DNA from: Phycisphaerales bacterium
GTDB taxonomy: Bacteria; Planctomycetota; Phycisphaerae; Phycisphaerales; SM1A02
DNA length: 64,000 nucleotides
NCBI GenBank assembly: GCA_029260575.1
Contig: JAJDDB010000001.1
Coordinates: forward strand, 1 to 64,000
Direction: 5' to 3'
The position numbers and the translations under genes were made by a program. Shown here piece by piece: positions 58,583 through 63,977 of this stretch. The first letter of the stretch is position 1; every line of letters begins with the position of its first letter. The notes beneath the pieces were generated by a model, which did no database searches, was not told the origin of the DNA, and saw nothing but the letters and a program-made list of their open reading frames with translations.

Positions 58583-59011
58583 GCAGTAGAGATAATACTT
58601 TGCCCTGCACTACTGCTGCGCGCGCAATACGCCACTTTGCAGACAAATAAAACTGGATATTCAGAACCGTTTTTCAGCGCCAGAGCTGCGAATTCGCCAC
58701 AGAAGCGCCTCATTGCGCGCGCCCTCCGCTGCCCCCATCCATATACAGAAACACATCACACCAACACCACCCCGCACCGCCCCCAATTCAAGGCGGCGCT
58801 GCCGGTTCACCGGCCGGCGACAAACACACCCACCCCAGAGAACCCCCATGCTCGACAAACCCACCGCCAACAACAACACAACGCACGAAACATCTCCCAC
58901 TTCCCCAAAAATACCCGACCATCATGCGCAGCGCCGCGAAGTGCTCGAAACCGGAAGTATGTACTTGACGCAAAGGCATAGTCCAACGATTAGAGATAGC
59001 ATCGCCACTCA
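58583..59011. other. 429-bp gene-free region at the edge of the accessory island
   Basis: No supported gene. The sequence around 58740-58900 is C- and A-rich with CACCAACACC-like runs and no coding pattern. TTGACG at 58965-58970 may be the -35 box of the gene at 59012, but no good -10 box is at the right distance. Confidence 0.35.
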
Positions 59012-59704
59012 ATGGCAAAGCCTCGGCGGAAGATTCGATTCCTTGATCCGGGCCGCTATTGGTGCTGGATTCTCGGCCAGTCGATCTACTTGGCCGTCCA
59101 CACCACGATTCCCTATGCCATTGGAGCGGCGCTGGGGATCGGGGGCGCGATCGTGCTGATGTTGCAGGACGATCCGACTTGGTATGTAGCGCTTCTAACT
59201 GCAGCAGGAGGTGGCGTAATCGGTGTGGTTGGAGTCTTTATGTATTCAGCGGTTTGTGGTGTTCTTCGCATACCCGTTGAAGAGCACTATCGGTGGCGAA
59301 CACGGCTTCGCAAGCAGCATCATCGACGGAGGCGTACAGCCACGATGTTGCGCAGTCGTTTAGAGGACGTGACGCAGTCTACAAGTGTCTCTACTGATGC
59401 TATTCGGGCAATCGAAAAGCTACTTGAAGATGGCCACGTCCAACAACAGGCAAATAAACGTGATTGGGGACCTGGCGAGACGGGACAGAAAATCTATGTA
59501 GATACATTCCGTTTCTGGCGCGAGGACGTTGCCGATGCCATTAGAGATTACTTCTCTGCTTCCGATGTCGTCTTGGTTGATAGGTGGCATCAAGAATCAA
59601 TCAGAGAGAATCGGTCCGGCACTCAATACTTCCAAGCAAAGAACAGATGGGGATACATGCTCGGCAAGCTGCATGAGTACTTACAGACAAAGAAACAACA
59701 GTGA
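59012..59704 (+). CDS. Membrane protein of unknown function
   Basis: The 230-residue product has a basic N-terminus (MAKPRRKIRFLDPGRYW) and three membrane helices up to about residue 85 (IPYAIGAALGIGGAIVLML, YVALLTAAGGGVIGVVGVFM). Its cytoplasmic tail is highly basic at first (RKQHHRRRRTATMLRSRLED) and then mixed, ending in a lysine-rich stretch. No family was recognised. It ends only 8 bp from the convergent stop of the small acidic gene, so it is packed tightly against the transposase unit and may travel with it. Confidence 0.65.
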   Translation: MAKPRRKIRFLDPGRYWCWILGQSIYLAVHTTIPYAIGAALGIGGAIVLMLQDDPTWYVALLTAAGGGVIGVVGVFMYSAVCGVLRIPVEEHYRWRTRLRKQHHRRRRTATMLRSRLEDVTQSTSVSTDAIRAIEKLLEDGHVQQQANKRDWGPGETGQKIYVDTFRFWREDVADAIRDYFSASDVVLVDRWHQESIRENRSGTQYFQAKNRWGYMLGKLHEYLQTKKQQ

Positions 59705-59712
59705 TGGCACCT

Positions 59713-59874
59713 TTACGCGCCATCGCTTTCGTTTTCTTCATCATGCTTGGGCCAACCGTCTTCCGGGCGTTCTTTGTCGATCGCCTTCTTCATGGCATCT
59801 TCCCAGTCGCCGTCGATATTCAGGCGGTCGGGTTCTGGCCCCGGCTTCATCTTTGATTCGTCTTTGTCCGGCAT
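59713..59874 (-). CDS. Small acidic protein downstream of the IS1595 transposase
   Basis: The 53-residue product starts MPDKDESKMKPGPEPDRLNI and continues DGDWEDAMKKAIDKERPEDG, then WPKHDEENESDGA. It begins 9 bp after the transposase stop, so it is very likely co-transcribed and coupled. It is strongly acidic and has no signal peptide or membrane helix. The codon pattern and composition look coding in spite of its size. Function is unknown; it may be an accessory protein of the element. Confidence 0.6.
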   Translation of the reverse strand: MPDKDESKMKPGPEPDRLNIDGDWEDAMKKAIDKERPEDGWPKHDEENESDGA

Positions 59875-59883
59875 GTCGTCATT

Positions 59884-60885
59884 CTACGCCTTCACTGGCT
59901 CGCGGTACATGAGGCGCTTTCCTTCTGCACCTTTGATGCACGCCTTGAGCCGTTCGCCATCGTCTACGTTGCGATGGTTGTATCGAAACTCGAACTCGTC
60001 CAAGTAGCGCTGCAAGTGCTTTCGGCTGACGTTGTGGAACGTGCCATTGATGCCGCGCTTCAGGATTGCAAAGAACGATTCGATTGTGTTCGTCGTCACA
60101 TTGCCCCGGACGTATACGCGGTTCTTGTGAGCAATCCGCTCATGCCCGCCCTTGAACTCCTTGCCGACCGTGATGTAGCCGGGGTGTTCATCGGTCATGA
60201 GTGTTGACGACAGGTCGATATGCTCTTTGATCGCTGCTTTCAGGTTGAGCGCAGTCACTTCTGGCATGACGCGGGCGCGAACCTGTCCGCCGCGTTCTAC
60301 TGCTGCGAACACCGGGGTCTTGCGATCGCGGATGGTTTCACTGTTGCTTGTGAAGTTGCGGAAGGGTTCCGGGATGCGCGGCAGACGATAGCGCGGCTTG
60401 CCACCGACGTACGTTTCATCGGCTTCCACGATCCCGCTGAGTTTCGGCCCGCCGTCTGTTGGAGCCATTGCGAAACGAATGCGGTGCATCATGAACAGTG
60501 CGCTCTTGTACGTTACGCCCGTCTGCCGTTTGATCTGCAGCGCGGAGACACCCTTCTTGGAAGCGCAGGCAGCCCAGAACGCATAGCACCAGTGTTGCAG
60601 CGGGATGCGGCTGTCCTCGAATACTGTGCCGATGCGGACGGTGTACTGCTTGGTGCAGCTCCGGCAGCGCCAGAGGTAGCGGCGGTTGCGCTCGCCCGTC
60701 TTTGAGTCTTTCATCTGGTAAACGGCTGTATCCCCACAGCGCGGGCAGCACGGCTGCTGGTCCCAACCCCGCATCGCCTCTAGGAACTCCACGGCGGCCT
60801 TTTCTGATGCGCAGGCGGCTGGAATCGCGGTGACGATCTCAGACTTGTCGGATGCGACCTTGGTTTTCTGTCCTTTGCGTGCCAT
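59884..60885 (-). CDS. IS1595 (ISXO2-like) family transposase
   Basis: The 333-residue product has a zinc ribbon first (CCPRCGDTAVYQM, then WRCRSCTKQYTVRIGTVFED). The DDE-type ISXO2-like domain follows: VEADETYVGGKPR (first Asp), LMTDEHPGYITVG (second Asp), NTIESFFAILKRGINGTFH (Glu) and FEFRYNHRNVDDGERL. The domain order and length match intact family members. Transcription is from the near-perfect promoter just upstream. No clear terminal inverted repeats were found around it, and convergent genes abut it closely, so the limits of the element are uncertain. Confidence 0.92.
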   Translation of the reverse strand: MARKGQKTKVASDKSEIVTAIPAACASEKAAVEFLEAMRGWDQQPCCPRCGDTAVYQMKDSKTGERNRRYLWRCRSCTKQYTVRIGTVFEDSRIPLQHWCYAFWAACASKKGVSALQIKRQTGVTYKSALFMMHRIRFAMAPTDGGPKLSGIVEADETYVGGKPRYRLPRIPEPFRNFTSNSETIRDRKTPVFAAVERGGQVRARVMPEVTALNLKAAIKEHIDLSSTLMTDEHPGYITVGKEFKGGHERIAHKNRVYVRGNVTTNTIESFFAILKRGINGTFHNVSRKHLQRYLDEFEFRYNHRNVDDGERLKACIKGAEGKRLMYREPVKA

Positions 60886-60891
60886 GACATC

Positions 60892-60919
60892 ATTATACCT
60901 GACGCAATAGTTGTGTCAA
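60892..60919 (-). promoter_or_regulatory. Consensus sigma-70 promoter giving a leaderless transposase mRNA
   Basis: On the minus strand TTGACA, a 16-bp spacer and TATAAT stand in order, a perfect match to both boxes. The last base of the -10 box is 6 bases before the A of the transposase ATG at 60885. Transcription would therefore start at or within a base or two of the start codon. Confidence 0.8.
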
Positions 60920-60927
60920 ATAAAAAG

Positions 60928-61110
60928 TCATCCCGCCGCAATCGAGTTTAGGATTCTGAGCCAAGCACGCAATAATGCGTTCTTGTGTTCTTTCTCTTGC
61001 ACCCTTTGGACCTCGTTGCGAATCTCTCGCCCGCTCTCAATGATTGCCTCAGTGTTCTCTTTTACCTTATTTGACGCTGTTGCCTTCTCCGATAGTACCG
61101 CGCTTGACAT
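60928..61110 (-). CDS. Small helical protein overlapping the membrane protein gene
   Basis: The 60-residue product starts MSSAVLSEKATASNKVKENT and reads on as one charged amphipathic helix (EIRNEVQRVQEKEHKNALLR AWLR in two parts). Its ATG lies inside the 3' end of the upstream gene (44-bp overlap, different frame) and has CGGAGGCGCAGAACG before it, a good ribosome site. It is probably coupled to the membrane protein as a partner. It is not recognised as any family. The overlap and size keep confidence moderate. Confidence 0.5.
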   Translation of the reverse strand: MSSAVLSEKATASNKVKENTEAIIESGREIRNEVQRVQEKEHKNALLRAWLRILNSIAAG

Positions 61111-61810
61111 CGTTCTGCGCCTCCGATTGCTGTCTGATTCTTGCATCATTATCGCTATCAGTCAACTCAAAGACGTAAATTGTGATTCCGGCGAAGGTTG
61201 TCAAGAAACCCAGAATTGTGCAAAAAATTCCTTCTTTAAGTCGGCGAGATACTCGAAGATTCTTTGATCTAAGATCGTCATATGCTGCTCGAAGACGCTC
61301 AGCCCGCATAAAAATCAGTTCAATTGGTGCCATCGAACACCAATCCTCTAGATCCTCATTATCAGGGAGCACGGTCGAGAGCGATCTACCCTCAGGCCAG
61401 CGAGGCTTGGGGGGCGGATCAACTTTGATCTCTTGTGACCGCTCAGGGGCCCGGGCTTTCAAATAAAGCCACTTTGTGCGCCGCTTGAGACAGTGCCAAA
61501 TGGCGTATGCGATCCGCCTTAAAGTCGGGCGCTGTGTATGCAGGAAATATACGGCTAGCGTAAAGAGGCAAATGGCTGAGACAATAAGCCACCGAAAGAA
61601 CGGAACTGATCGACCATCAATGATCGCCGTGCGACCCTCAGGAGCCCAAAATTCCAGTTTGAACAGACCTAAGCCGAGAAGTACAGCTAGCAGCGATGAA
61701 AGCACCTTGCGACGATTGCGAAGCGTTTCCGCCAAATCAGCTTGGTCATCCCAGAGCGTCTTAACCTGCTCGAAAATCTGGGCGGCGTTCTTTTCTACGT
61801 CGTCTGTCAT
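61067..61810 (-). CDS. Membrane protein of unknown function
   Basis: The 247-residue product from the ATG at 61810 (a TTG ten codons earlier is possible) starts MTDDVEKNAAQIFEQVKTLW. It has two membrane helices in the first 90 residues (VLSSLLAVLLGLGLFKLEFW, WLIVSAICLFTLAVYFLH) and one near the end (GIFCTILGFLTTFAGITIYV). The middle is a soluble basic and helical segment (PIELIFMRAERLRAAYDDLR). No family was recognised. It lies beside the tRNA gene, is followed by the overlapping 60-residue gene and the transposase, and is part of the island. Confidence 0.6.
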   Translation of the reverse strand: MTDDVEKNAAQIFEQVKTLWDDQADLAETLRNRRKVLSSLLAVLLGLGLFKLEFWAPEGRTAIIDGRSVPFFRWLIVSAICLFTLAVYFLHTQRPTLRRIAYAIWHCLKRRTKWLYLKARAPERSQEIKVDPPPKPRWPEGRSLSTVLPDNEDLEDWCSMAPIELIFMRAERLRAAYDDLRSKNLRVSRRLKEGIFCTILGFLTTFAGITIYVFELTDSDNDARIRQQSEAQNDVKRGTIGEGNSVK

Positions 61811-61852
61811 AATCTTGACTACTGAAACATCCGTGTTCAAAATACGCTAAAA

Positions 61853-61938
61853 TGCGGACGGCGGGAATCGAACCCGCAAGGCGGAATACCGCCAGTGGAC
61901 CCCAAGTCCACTGCGTTTGCCAATTTCGCCACGTCCGC
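61853..61938 (-). tRNA. Class II tRNA: leucine-type body with UGG (proline) anticodon
   Basis: The 86-nt gene folds completely. The acceptor stem is GCGGACG/CGTCCGC and the D arm GCG..CGC has AAATTGGCAAA in the loop. The anticodon stem is GTGGA/TCCAC with loop CTTGGGG, the variable arm is long (GGCGG TATT CCGCC), and the T arm is GCGGG TTCGATT CCCGC. The discriminator is A73 and no CCA is encoded. Body, A73 and long arm are those of tRNA-Leu. Positions 34-36 (61904-61902) are TGG, which decodes CCA/CCG proline codons. It is one base (A35 to G) from the Leu UAG anticodon. Either an unusual tRNA, a mutated gene or a sequence error. Confidence 0.85.
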
Positions 61939-61949
61939 GACCGAGTAAT

Positions 61950-61965
61950 GCCCCCGTCAGGGGGC
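61950..61965. other. GC hairpin just upstream of the tRNA
   Basis: GCCCCC-loop-GGGGGC forms a 6-bp stem 12 bp before the tRNA 5' end. Without a T-run it is a weak terminator candidate for the gene at 62062, or a processing or pausing site. Confidence 0.3.
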
Positions 61966-62061
61966 GTCCCAAGCCACAACCTCATGTCCCGCCTTTAGAC
62001 CAGATGGGGTCGAGGTTGTGCTTGCGCGCTGTTGGGCCAGCGCTTATGAGGGGGCGGCATG

Positions 62062-62457
62062 TCAGTCACCTCCTTCAGGGTTGACGAGACGCCAGACCTT
62101 GTCCCGACCACTGCCGGGGGCACAGGCATTCTCGAAGTGCTGTCGGTGGCTCTTATAAAGGACGTACCGGATCGAATCCGCCGGAAATTCGGTGATCCGT
62201 TCGAGTTGGGCAACAGATCGCCAGTCGTTCTTCGCAGACCTGAGCACATCGCGCAGAACAGTGAAACGGGTCGGTTTCACTGATCCGTTCGACGATGATC
62301 GCGCCTTCGGATTCACAGCGGATTGCTGGAGCGCAACGACAAGCTCGTCCAGCAGGACGGGGTCTTCGACAACCAAATCCTTGATCCGCTGGACAACTTC
62401 AAGCCGCCCCTGAAGACGTGATTCCAGTGCGTTTAGTGGAGATGTGGTAACACTCAT
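62062..62457 (-). CDS. Small protein of unknown function
   Basis: The 131-residue product starts MSVTTSPLNALESRLQGRLE; an upstream start adds 22 residues without support. Its first half is helical (VVQRIKDLVVEDPVLLDELV), then comes a short linker (SSSNGSVKPTRFTVLRDVLR). The second half is winged-helix-like (SVAQLERITEFPADSIRYVL YKSHRQHFE in two parts), so it may bind DNA. No clear ribosome site is visible. It lies between the tRNA and recA and is divergent from recA. No known family was recognised. Confidence 0.6.
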   Translation of the reverse strand: MSVTTSPLNALESRLQGRLEVVQRIKDLVVEDPVLLDELVVALQQSAVNPKARSSSNGSVKPTRFTVLRDVLRSAKNDWRSVAQLERITEFPADSIRYVLYKSHRQHFENACAPGSGRDKVWRLVNPEGGD

Positions 62458-62849
62458 GGCGGGGAAGCTATACGACCGCAAGCTGTTCCGCTTGTAATTG
62501 TCAGCAAAAAGCGCTTTGTCCACATGAAGTGCGCGGCCGACCGAGCCAATTCACGAAAGTTACATGCCGGTGAGTTGGTTAGCACCCCGCGATTGTGTGG
62601 TGTTCAAGCGCTTTTTGAGGGGGGTTGCGTCAAGTCTATACTTCCGGAAAAAACATACGAATTTTTACCGAACACCCCTTGACACCGCCGATGAATATGC
62701 GAACCTTCCATATACCGAACAAATTGACCAGAACAAGGGGTTCAGCTATGTTGACTGCAACAGGATCACGAAACGGAATTACACGAAACAGCAAGAGCAG
62801 ATTCGGCGGGAAATCGACCCCAAAGACTCCCAGCAAGATCACAGAACCC
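62458..62849. other. Divergent region upstream of recA
   Basis: This 392-bp gap holds the recA promoter. TACCGAACA occurs twice (62666-62674 and 62713-62721), and TTGACA is at 62679-62684 without a good -10 box. A LexA site would be expected here but no known LexA consensus is evident. Confidence 0.35.
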
Positions 62850-63977
62850 ATGGCAAACCGTAATTCTGACGATGCAGGACGCCTCCAGGCCCTTGAACGG
62901 GCTCTCGGCACCATCGAGAAGACCTTCGGTCAAGGTGCCATCATGCGCCTTGATGATGATGTCTCAAACCTTCCCCCGGGCATCTCCACCGGGGCACTCA
63001 GCCTCGACATCGCCCTCGGCGGACGCGGCATCCCACGCGGACGCGTCATCGAGATTTACGGCCCGGAATCCTCCGGCAAGACCACACTCGCACTCACCAT
63101 CGCTGCCAACGCCCAGAAAACTGGCGGTGTCGCAGCATTTATCGATGCAGAACACGCGCTCGACCCATCCTGGGCCAAACGCCTCGGCGTCAACCTTGAT
63201 GATCTGCTCGTCTCCCAACCAGACACCGGCGAGCAAGCGCTGGAAATCTGCGAGCTGCTCGTCCGCTCAAACGCAATAGATGTCATCGTCATCGACTCCG
63301 TCGCAGCACTCATCCCACGTGCGGAAATCGAAGGTGAGATGGGTGACACCCATGTCGGCTTGCAGGCCCGTTTGATGAGCCAGGCCCTGCGCAAACTCAC
63401 CGGCGCCATTGCCAAGAGCGATACCACCGTCATCTTCATCAACCAGATCCGCGAGAAGATCGGCGTGATGTTCGGCTCACCCGAAACGACGCCCGGCGGC
63501 AGAGCATTGAAGTTCTATTCATCTATCCGTATCGACATCCGAAGAACCGGCGCGATCAAGGATGCCGATTCACACATCGGCAACCGTGTCCGCGCTCGTG
63601 TTGTCAAGAACAAGATTGCTCCGCCCTTCCGTGACGCGGAATTCGACATCATGTTCAACGAAGGGATCAGCGCATCCGGCGACTTGATCGACCTCGCAGT
63701 AAACGACGAAGTCGTGCAGAAAAGCGGTGCGTGGTTCAGCTATGGTGATGTCCGCCTCGGCCAGGGTCGCGAAAACTCCAAGATTTTCCTCAACGAGAAC
63801 CCCGATCTTGCTGCGGAAATCCGTAGAGGTGTCATGGAACATCGCGGTCTGACCGACGCCAAACTGGCTACAGCGCAGGCTGAAGTCAAGGATGGTGCCG
63901 AAGCAACAACCGATATTGATTCGGACGATGGTGAAAAGTCGTCGTCCAAGTCTTCAGGCACGAAGTCAAAACGATAG
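62850..63977 (+). CDS. recA: RecA recombinase
   Basis: The 375-residue product from the ATG at 62850 ([20 protein letters not shown]) has all RecA hallmarks: Walker A GPESSGKT, the make-ATP-work segment [18 protein letters not shown], Walker [11 protein letters not shown], loop L1 [11 protein letters not shown] and loop L2 [27 protein letters not shown] in two parts. The C-terminal tail is acidic and serine/lysine-rich, as usual. The open frame extends 75 codons upstream but has no recA likeness. It promotes strand exchange and triggers the SOS response. It lies next to a tRNA and an IS island. Confidence 0.98.

Follow-up and report, generated by a model that had tools for sequence, protein, structure and literature searches.

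We found that a tRNA with the body of a leucine tRNA and the proline anticodon UGG is the cargo of a transposon of the IS1595 family, that this arrangement recurs across bacterial phyla, and that the presence of the RNA goes together with CCA, the codon read by the anticodon UGG, at a few sites in the transposase gene of the same element. This pairing of a Leu-type tRNA with CCA sites suggests that the element reinterprets a portion of its own message. Judged from the sequences, the RNA is probably a transposon-borne missense tRNA, which would place leucine at CCA codons reserved for this purpose in the element's own transposase gene and thereby tune the activity of the transposase.

The window, i.e. 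the whole 64-kb stretch of planctomycete DNA that was analysed, holds one tRNA, which was detected by ARAGORN with the anticodon TGG and is matched end to end by the Rfam model RF00005 (57.6 bits, gathering threshold 29). The preliminary description of this DNA had reported an intact Leu-type class II tRNA with the proline anticodon UGG, and both programs as well as the sequence itself bear this out. The gene has a G1:C72 acceptor pair, the D arm GUGGCGAAAUUGGCAAACGC as in tRNA-Leu, a long variable arm, A73 and the anticodon loop CUUGGGG; the CCA tail is not encoded. A class II body, the Leu D arm, A14 and A73 are identity elements of bacterial tRNA-Leu, and all of them are present here, with UGG in place of a leucine anticodon with A35. 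With tRNA-Pro the window tRNA shares the anticodon NGG, but it is of class II with G1:C72, whereas tRNA-Pro is of class I with C1:G72. The host genome (G000; 41 contigs, 4.11 Mb, 95.3% complete, 48 tRNA matches) contains normal class II tRNA-Leu genes with the anticodons UAG, CAG, UAA, CAA and GAG and normal class I tRNA-Pro genes with UGG, CGG and GGG, all three with C1:G72. Normal tRNA-Leu(UAG) and tRNA-Pro(UGG) genes, for which the preliminary description had proposed to look, thus do exist elsewhere in the genome, and because the host holds both sets, the window tRNA is an extra gene.

The tRNA had also been placed beside IS1595 and recA, which is right; more exactly, it lies inside an IS1595-family transposon of 3.7 kb (58952-62646), which is bounded by inverted repeats and encloses the tRNA together with the transposase gene and three ORFs that match no family above the cut-off (Table 1). 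Ends that are the same as or very similar to CGGAAGTATGTACTTGACGCAA were found in L209, L251, L301, L304, L311 and others, and no intact, perfect 8-bp target-site duplication was found at the window copy. The transposase matches NF033547 with an E value of 8e-60 and 202 bits (cut-off 75). In its AF2 model (pLDDT 84.5), residue 22 lies between two short N-terminal helices, residue 142 in a loop preceding the DDE domain and residue 330 in a low-confidence tail, and homologs carry many different residues at the middle and C-terminal sites; going by this model, the three CCA sites look tolerant of substitution. Given a candidate promoter 6 bases from its ATG, the transposase mRNA is perhaps leaderless. 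This consensus promoter overlaps an inverted-repeat-like motif, TTGCGTCA, at 60885-60925, and through this overlap the transposase mRNA is perhaps self-repressed.

Table 1. Features of the window transposon and its surroundings (window positions), and small tRNA-like RNAs at other loci (positions within the named locus)
Feature	Position	Strand	Evidence or remark
Left terminal inverted repeat, CGGAAGTATGTACTTGACGCAA	58952..58973	+	20/22 bases shared with the right repeat
Passenger ORF of 230 aa, possible membrane protein	59012..59704	+	sub-threshold Pfam match PF20712, E 0.003; between the repeats
IS1595-family transposase, zinc ribbon and ISXO2-like DDE domain, 333 aa	59884..60885	-	PF12762, E 7e-39; PF12760, E 1e-9
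CCA codon, residue 330, C-terminal site, model column 324	59896..59898	-	
CCA codon, residue 142, middle-loop site, model column 139	60460..60462	-	
CCA codon, residue 22, N-terminal site, model column 20	60820..60822	-	
Candidate promoter TTGACA-16-TATAAT, ends 6 bases before the transposase ATG	60892..60919	-	12/12 consensus bases, pattern match only
Passenger ORF of 257 aa without family match above cut-off	61067..61840	-	
tRNA, Leu body, class II, anticodon UGG at 61904-61902	61853..61938	-	ARAGORN and Rfam
Passenger ORF of at most 153 aa without family match	62062..62523	-	30% identical to an ORF beside the tRNA in L211
Right terminal inverted repeat	62625..62646	+	~200 bases upstream of recA
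recA, host gene outside the element	62850..63977	+	PF00154, E 8e-133; start inferred from the protein
Mini RNA, L252	L252:5851-5911		beside IS1595 gene
Mini RNA, L254	L254:5532-5600		beside IS1595 gene
Mini RNA, L255	L255:2036-2106		beside IS1595 gene
Mini RNA, L258	L258:7913-7982		beside IS1595 gene
Mini RNA, L397	L397:5059-5125		beside IS1595 gene

A pattern scan of one genome per species in 84,980 species, in which the Leu D arm, UGG and the T arm were fixed, found tRNAs with a Leu body and the anticodon UGG in 42 stretches, which span Planctomycetota, Acidobacteria, Gemmatimonadetes, Verrucomicrobia, several proteobacterial groups, Chitinispirillaceae, Dehalococcoidia and Prevotella. IS1595 ORFs near these tRNAs were sought with a profile built from nine transposases. 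Such an ORF lies at most 1.5 kb from the tRNA inside the fetched piece in 25/42, and in 27/42 if L280 and L307 are added, where it is found just past the fetched piece on the same contig and at most 1.5 kb from the tRNA; counted anywhere in the fetched piece, the figures are 29/42 and, with the same two loci, 31/42. At control loci with other tRNAs and 1.5-kb flanks, the count was 0/57; this set began with 59 loci, from which L066 and L070 were left out as UGG copies with an IS1595 ORF, and contains some pieces that overlap as well as L075, an odd tRNA with a Leu body. In 11 of the 42 stretches no IS1595 ORF was found nearby (L275, L277, L283, L285, L289, L296, L297, L299, L302, L303, L306); IS1595 matches occur on other contigs of the same genome for L275, L277, L283, L296, L299 and L302; none turned up in the genomes of L285, L289, L297/L303 and L306. 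L299 is situated at a contig end, and the Prevotella copies L297 and L303, in which the acceptor stem is weak, are identical to each other.

The scan for inverted repeats gave convincing element ends at 28 of 35 loci. Perfect 8-bp target duplications flank 20 of these 28 elements with mapped ends, and in all 25 tRNA-bearing elements among them the odd tRNA lies between the inverted repeats. Displacement of a host tRNA by insertion of an IS was rejected on account of this position. Ends were not convincing at L179, L271, L278, L287, L293 and L305, nor at L316 and 14 further scanned loci, some of which are short pieces. Two other candidates were discarded: the Thr(UGU) tRNA of L259 lies outside that element and is not its cargo, and plasmid tRNA matches in Microvirga, Sinorhizobium and Pseudomonas (3 of 6 records) are ordinary tRNA-Leu with UAA or UAG.

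The stems of the RNAs covary. In an alignment of 31 RNAs, 98.4% of cells are paired, 16/20 pairs have changed on both sides, and pairing as high was reached in 0/500 shuffles; the acceptor and anticodon stems carry compensating changes. Among 55 RNAs that were excised from their loci, 15 have an extra-long variable arm and a total length of 96-103 nt. The covarying stems and the 42 stretches of like design rule out a sequencing error or a lone pseudogene, and the recurrence contradicts a gene unique to this assembly, which the preliminary description had considered. Nor does its suggestion hold that an extra copy had drifted in an accessory island, because the tRNA is transposon cargo, recurs across phyla and is matched by CCA codons in the transposase. 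That the RNA is a drifting or degenerate copy of a host tRNA-Leu, which its body resembles, has next to no probability in view of the covarying stems, the 42 places over many phyla and the position inside a transposon.

Since the pattern scan itself fixes UGG, the constancy of the anticodon was judged on those copies that were met via the transposase. Among these, 11/16 Leu-type tRNAs have UGG (L251, L261, L264, L265, L267, L372, L373, L374, L385, L388, L423; the anticodons of L374, L385 and L423 were read by eye), and the remaining 5/16 have UUA (L256, L403), AGG (L377), GGA (L394) and UGC (L334). The anticodon is therefore less fixed than the UGG-based scan suggests, which counts against a missense reading. 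In some copies (L209, L211, L423) the anticodon loop has C33, which would weaken decoding in those copies.

In L252, L254, L255 and L258, the element ends enclose small tRNA-like RNAs of 61-71 nt. Those of L254, L255 and L258 have G3:U70 and A73, which we take to be an alanine signature, and UGG in an anticodon-like loop, which consists of seven bases in L254 and is longer in L255 and L258; in L252, neither G3:U70 nor a UGG loop is clear. The RNA of L397, 67 nt long, has G3:U70 as well, and its UGG stands in a loop of seven bases; L258 additionally carries a serine-type tRNA with UAG. According to a review (PMC11415595), AlaRS, SerRS and, less strictly, LeuRS select their tRNAs without the anticodon, in agreement with the earlier statement that LeuRS depends little on it. 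The Leu bodies, the Ala-type bodies and the one Ser-type body found here are hence those of anticodon-indifferent synthetases, as would be expected if the RNAs were built to miscode. In one element, a mini RNA with G3:U70 (L256:6023-6093) and a Leu-type tRNA with the ochre anticodon UUA (L256:6097-6181) stand in tandem, three bases apart; an in-frame TAA target of this UUA tRNA was sought, and nothing clear was found.

Codon use in the transposase was scanned in 40 UGG-linked genes against each gene's own usage, in 340 column/amino-acid tests with at least 10 cases each, with p values that assume independent genes, which are in fact related. Proline is written as CCA in 20/20 cases in column 324 (C-terminal site, p 5e-14), in 20/21 in column 20 (N-terminal site, p 1e-12) and, in the middle loop, in 15/16 in column 139 (p 3e-9) and 13/15 in column 141 (p 1e-7). 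The sole non-CCA result among the five strongest is CGG for arginine in column 318 (25/35, p 5e-9), and all remaining tests gave p >1e-4. The window transposase has CCA at all three sites, N-terminal, middle and C-terminal. A DNA motif as the reason for the CCA sites was rejected, as the third bases of the surrounding codons vary. In L111, where the tRNA has the anticodon AGG, the middle and C-terminal sites are written as CCT; L377, also with AGG, has CCC and CCG there, not CCT.

This matching of codon and anticodon (CCA with UGG, and CCT with AGG in L111), while neighbouring third bases vary, argues against a role of the tRNA outside translation, for instance as a processing signal, transposition cofactor or decoy, in which case the CCA pattern would have some other cause. 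We consider such a role unlikely, even though it would fit the weakened decoding expected of the three C33 copies, the place and strand of the tRNA, which vary relative to the transposase between elements, and the occurrence of anticodons other than UGG. At six conserved proline columns, which were picked after seeing the data, CCA is rarer in linked than in unlinked genes (8/167 vs 12/82, p 0.012), and the two groups do not differ across the remaining proline columns taken together (31/311 vs 18/138, p 0.33), so that avoidance of CCA elsewhere in linked genes would be weak support at best.

Linkage and codon choice were compared on a tree of 93 transposases, which was built with a quick method after 15 named loci, ORFs <280 aa and rows with >40% gaps had been left out, and in which 35/90 inner branches have support <80. 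Linkage is gained or lost 19 times along this tree, and all linked transposases except that of L282 fall into one clade of 58 rows (support 99). Within the clade, CCA is present at at least one of the three sites in 34/35 genes linked to a Leu-type UGG tRNA vs 6/23 others (p 8e-9), where both the three sites and the measure, any CCA at these sites, were chosen after seeing the data. Four of the six others (L252, L254, L255, L258) have one of the small tRNA-like RNAs; if all four are counted as linked, the figures become 38/39 vs 2/19, and 37/38 vs 3/20 without L252. We prefer the Leu-type-only figures because the RNA of L252 lacks a clear UGG loop. Dropping three near-duplicates leaves 31/32 vs 6/23. 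Independent pairs across supported branches were on average 5.9/9 for the association, 0 against and 3.0 undecided (median p 0.03), and 6.8 for and 0 against when the small RNAs were included (median p 0.016); an earlier sign test on the C-terminal codon alone, with low power, had given a median p of 0.25.

The association was also seen in a new set of loci that were fetched by the transposase alone (best 80 of 579, two of which repeat earlier contigs). Among these, CCA is present in 6/6 loci with a class II UGG tRNA (L372, L373, L374, L385, L388, L423) vs 10/72 others (p 3e-5), the unlinked loci being mostly more distant, with a few near-duplicates. L397, counted among the 10 unlinked loci with CCA, holds a UGG mini-RNA, which was found because CCA pointed there. 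Of the loci with other anticodons, L377 (AGG) and L394 (GGA) are without CCA, and L403 (UUA) has one CCA in the middle region. There are exceptions in both directions. CCA occurs, yet no RNA was found, in L257 and L263, whose ends are mapped, in L375, L378, L379, L391 and L401, in L396, L422 and L434 with the class II model only, and, outside the clade, in L343, L351 and L361. Conversely, L272 and L282 are linked yet have no CCA; L282 belongs to another clade, and its linkage may be due to chance.

These observations could be explained as follows. The leucine-type body would be recognised by LeuRS, and the UGG tRNA would consequently be charged with leucine, which is the natural expectation because this synthetase depends little on the anticodon. 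The charged tRNA would then read CCA, and perhaps CCG, and insert leucine; its chief target would be the transposase message of the same element, which has CCA at up to three tolerant sites. The transposase would thus become a mixture of forms with proline and leucine at the CCA sites, and this mixture would adjust the activity of the enzyme to the amount of tRNA that the element provides; that the leucine form is the active one and that it is the damped one appear about equally probable. CCA makes up 84/365 proline codons in eight ORFs of the window and is not rare in the host. For this reason a strong missense tRNA would burden the host, and the tRNA may be weakly expressed, with C33 in some copies weakening decoding further.

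Several findings count against missense decoding. Leucine was found at the C-terminal site in 0/16 unlinked clade members with a readable site, and complete elements without a tRNA keep the N-terminal proline by means of CCC (L250) or CCG (L259, L260). For nematode Leu-type tRNAs with foreign anticodons, the accessible text of the study (PMC4300185) reports charging with leucine in vitro, yet no leucine in the proteome. The proline retained in tRNA-less relatives would agree with an RNA that is charged with proline and merely helps the element to read CCA. This we regard as very improbable, since G1:C72 and the Leu core stand against the C1:G72 of host tRNA-Pro, the host already owns a UGG tRNA-Pro, and some elements use G3:U70 mini-RNAs instead.

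Leucine insertion at the transposase's CCA codons, the explanation that we favour, can be spelled out in two versions. In the first, leucine or another non-proline residue is the functional one at the CCA sites, and full activity needs the element's tRNA, as with a lock and a private code. This possible, rather doubtful version is in line with the C-terminal proline of linked genes, which is never written with another codon (20/20 CCA) while other residues occur there, with the rarity of CCA at the six conserved proline columns (p 0.012, columns chosen post hoc), and with 13 ordinary IS1595 genes of sister clades that have leucine at the C-terminal site. It is at odds with the complete tRNA-less relatives, none of which has leucine at the N-terminal site, with the service of the same sites by Leu-type and Ala-type RNAs, and with the equal use of CCA over all other proline columns. 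In the second version, proline is functional, and the tRNA, the dose of which would rise with copy number, yields a faulty or dominant-negative transposase, by which the element limits itself. The complete tRNA-less elements L250, L259 and L260, which keep proline with other codons, point in this direction, and any non-proline residue would suffice here, as the variety of Leu and Ala types suggests. We likewise hold this version to be possible, on the unlikely side: the sites look tolerant, with residue 142 in a loop, residue 330 in a low-confidence model tail and many residues in homologs, and CCA is, if anything, scarcer at conserved prolines, where a kill site would be most effective.

Leucine insertion by a transposon-borne tRNA may also be part of a broader phenomenon. 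We tentatively propose, as an idea somewhat short of probable, a transposon lineage of many phyla with a local code of its own, in which anticodon-indifferent tRNAs (Leu-type and Ala-type mini RNAs), mostly with UGG, would cause CCA in the element's own transposase to be read as a non-proline residue, so that ambiguity of a sense codon controls transposition.

Natural missense tRNAs are known, but, to our knowledge, usually without a known target. In the present case a single small element carries both the tRNA and its candidate target codons, which makes programmed natural mistranslation directly testable. If true, this would be a new means of self-control for a transposon, and would open a new path along which the meaning of codons could start to shift. 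IS1595-family transposons with passenger genes were reportedly described by Siguier et al. in 2009; the present elements share with these the transposase family, the inverted repeats and, at 20 of the 28 mapped elements though not at the window copy, perfect 8-bp target duplications, and differ in having a recurrent tRNA passenger that is matched to transposase codons. Some phages reassign a stop codon and encode the matching suppressor tRNA themselves. There, too, a mobile element brings a tRNA that alters the reading of its own genes, but the phages change a stop codon genome-wide, whereas the present element would change a sense codon at few sites of one gene.

Extra tRNAs with a conflict between body and anticodon have been described in other settings. 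Nematode nev-tRNAs, in the accessible text (PMC4300185), likewise have a long variable arm and a foreign anticodon, are charged with leucine in vitro and are evolutionarily kept; they are, however, nuclear animal genes with Gly CCC or Ile UAU anticodons, and that text does not name target codons, whereas the window tRNA has UGG, is transposon-borne and accompanies a transposase that keeps CCA. The likeness of the window tRNA, with its long-variable-arm Leu body and non-Leu anticodon, is one of design only, and a shared origin is not claimed. Streptomyces tRNA-ProX genes are bacterial extra tRNAs with a conflict of identity and anticodon and a proposed role in mistranslation; they have a proline body with Ala, Asn or Thr anticodons, and the accessible text mentions no linkage to transposons (PMC11415595), whereas the window tRNA has a proline anticodon on a Leu body. 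Allo-tRNAs, as presented in the accessible text (PMC7609411), resemble it in their long variable arms, many anticodons and suggested role as missense decoders, but are of Ser type with an 8/4 or 9/3 acceptor branch, whereas the window tRNA is of the ordinary Leu type with 7/5 pairing. Among the matches listed in the open literature, there was no transposon with a missense tRNA matched to its own transposase codons. The parts are of known kinds, and their combination is, as far as seen, apparently undescribed.

Some further observations were made in passing. In the closely related transposases of L208, L213, L266 and L268, a single in-frame stop interrupts otherwise conserved sequence; L266 and L268 both have it as a TAG in identical position. 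Near an IS1595 gene, L334 has its Leu-type UGC tRNA at positions 88-171, for which no matching GCA site was found. An odd 68-nt tRNA with GCA and G3:U70 (L311:2970-3037) lies 17 bases from a UGG tRNA in the same element, and two IS1595 loci hold tRNA-like RNAs of 68-69 nt with the T-loop TGCAAAT and without UGG (L420:6653-6721, L425:2227-2294). The relative G009 has a Leu-bodied tRNA with the Trp anticodon CCA (L212:8994-9083) at a distance of 3 kb from a selenocysteine tRNA, and the 18 kb fetched there contain no IS1595 gene. In viral contigs (L088-L207), the Leu-type D-arm motif occurs, among the matches listed, on class I phage tRNAs for Asn (GUU), Gln (UUG) and His (GUG), and class II tRNAs with the motif, again among the matches listed, have Gly, Ala, Ser, Glu, Arg and stop (UUA, CUA) anticodons.
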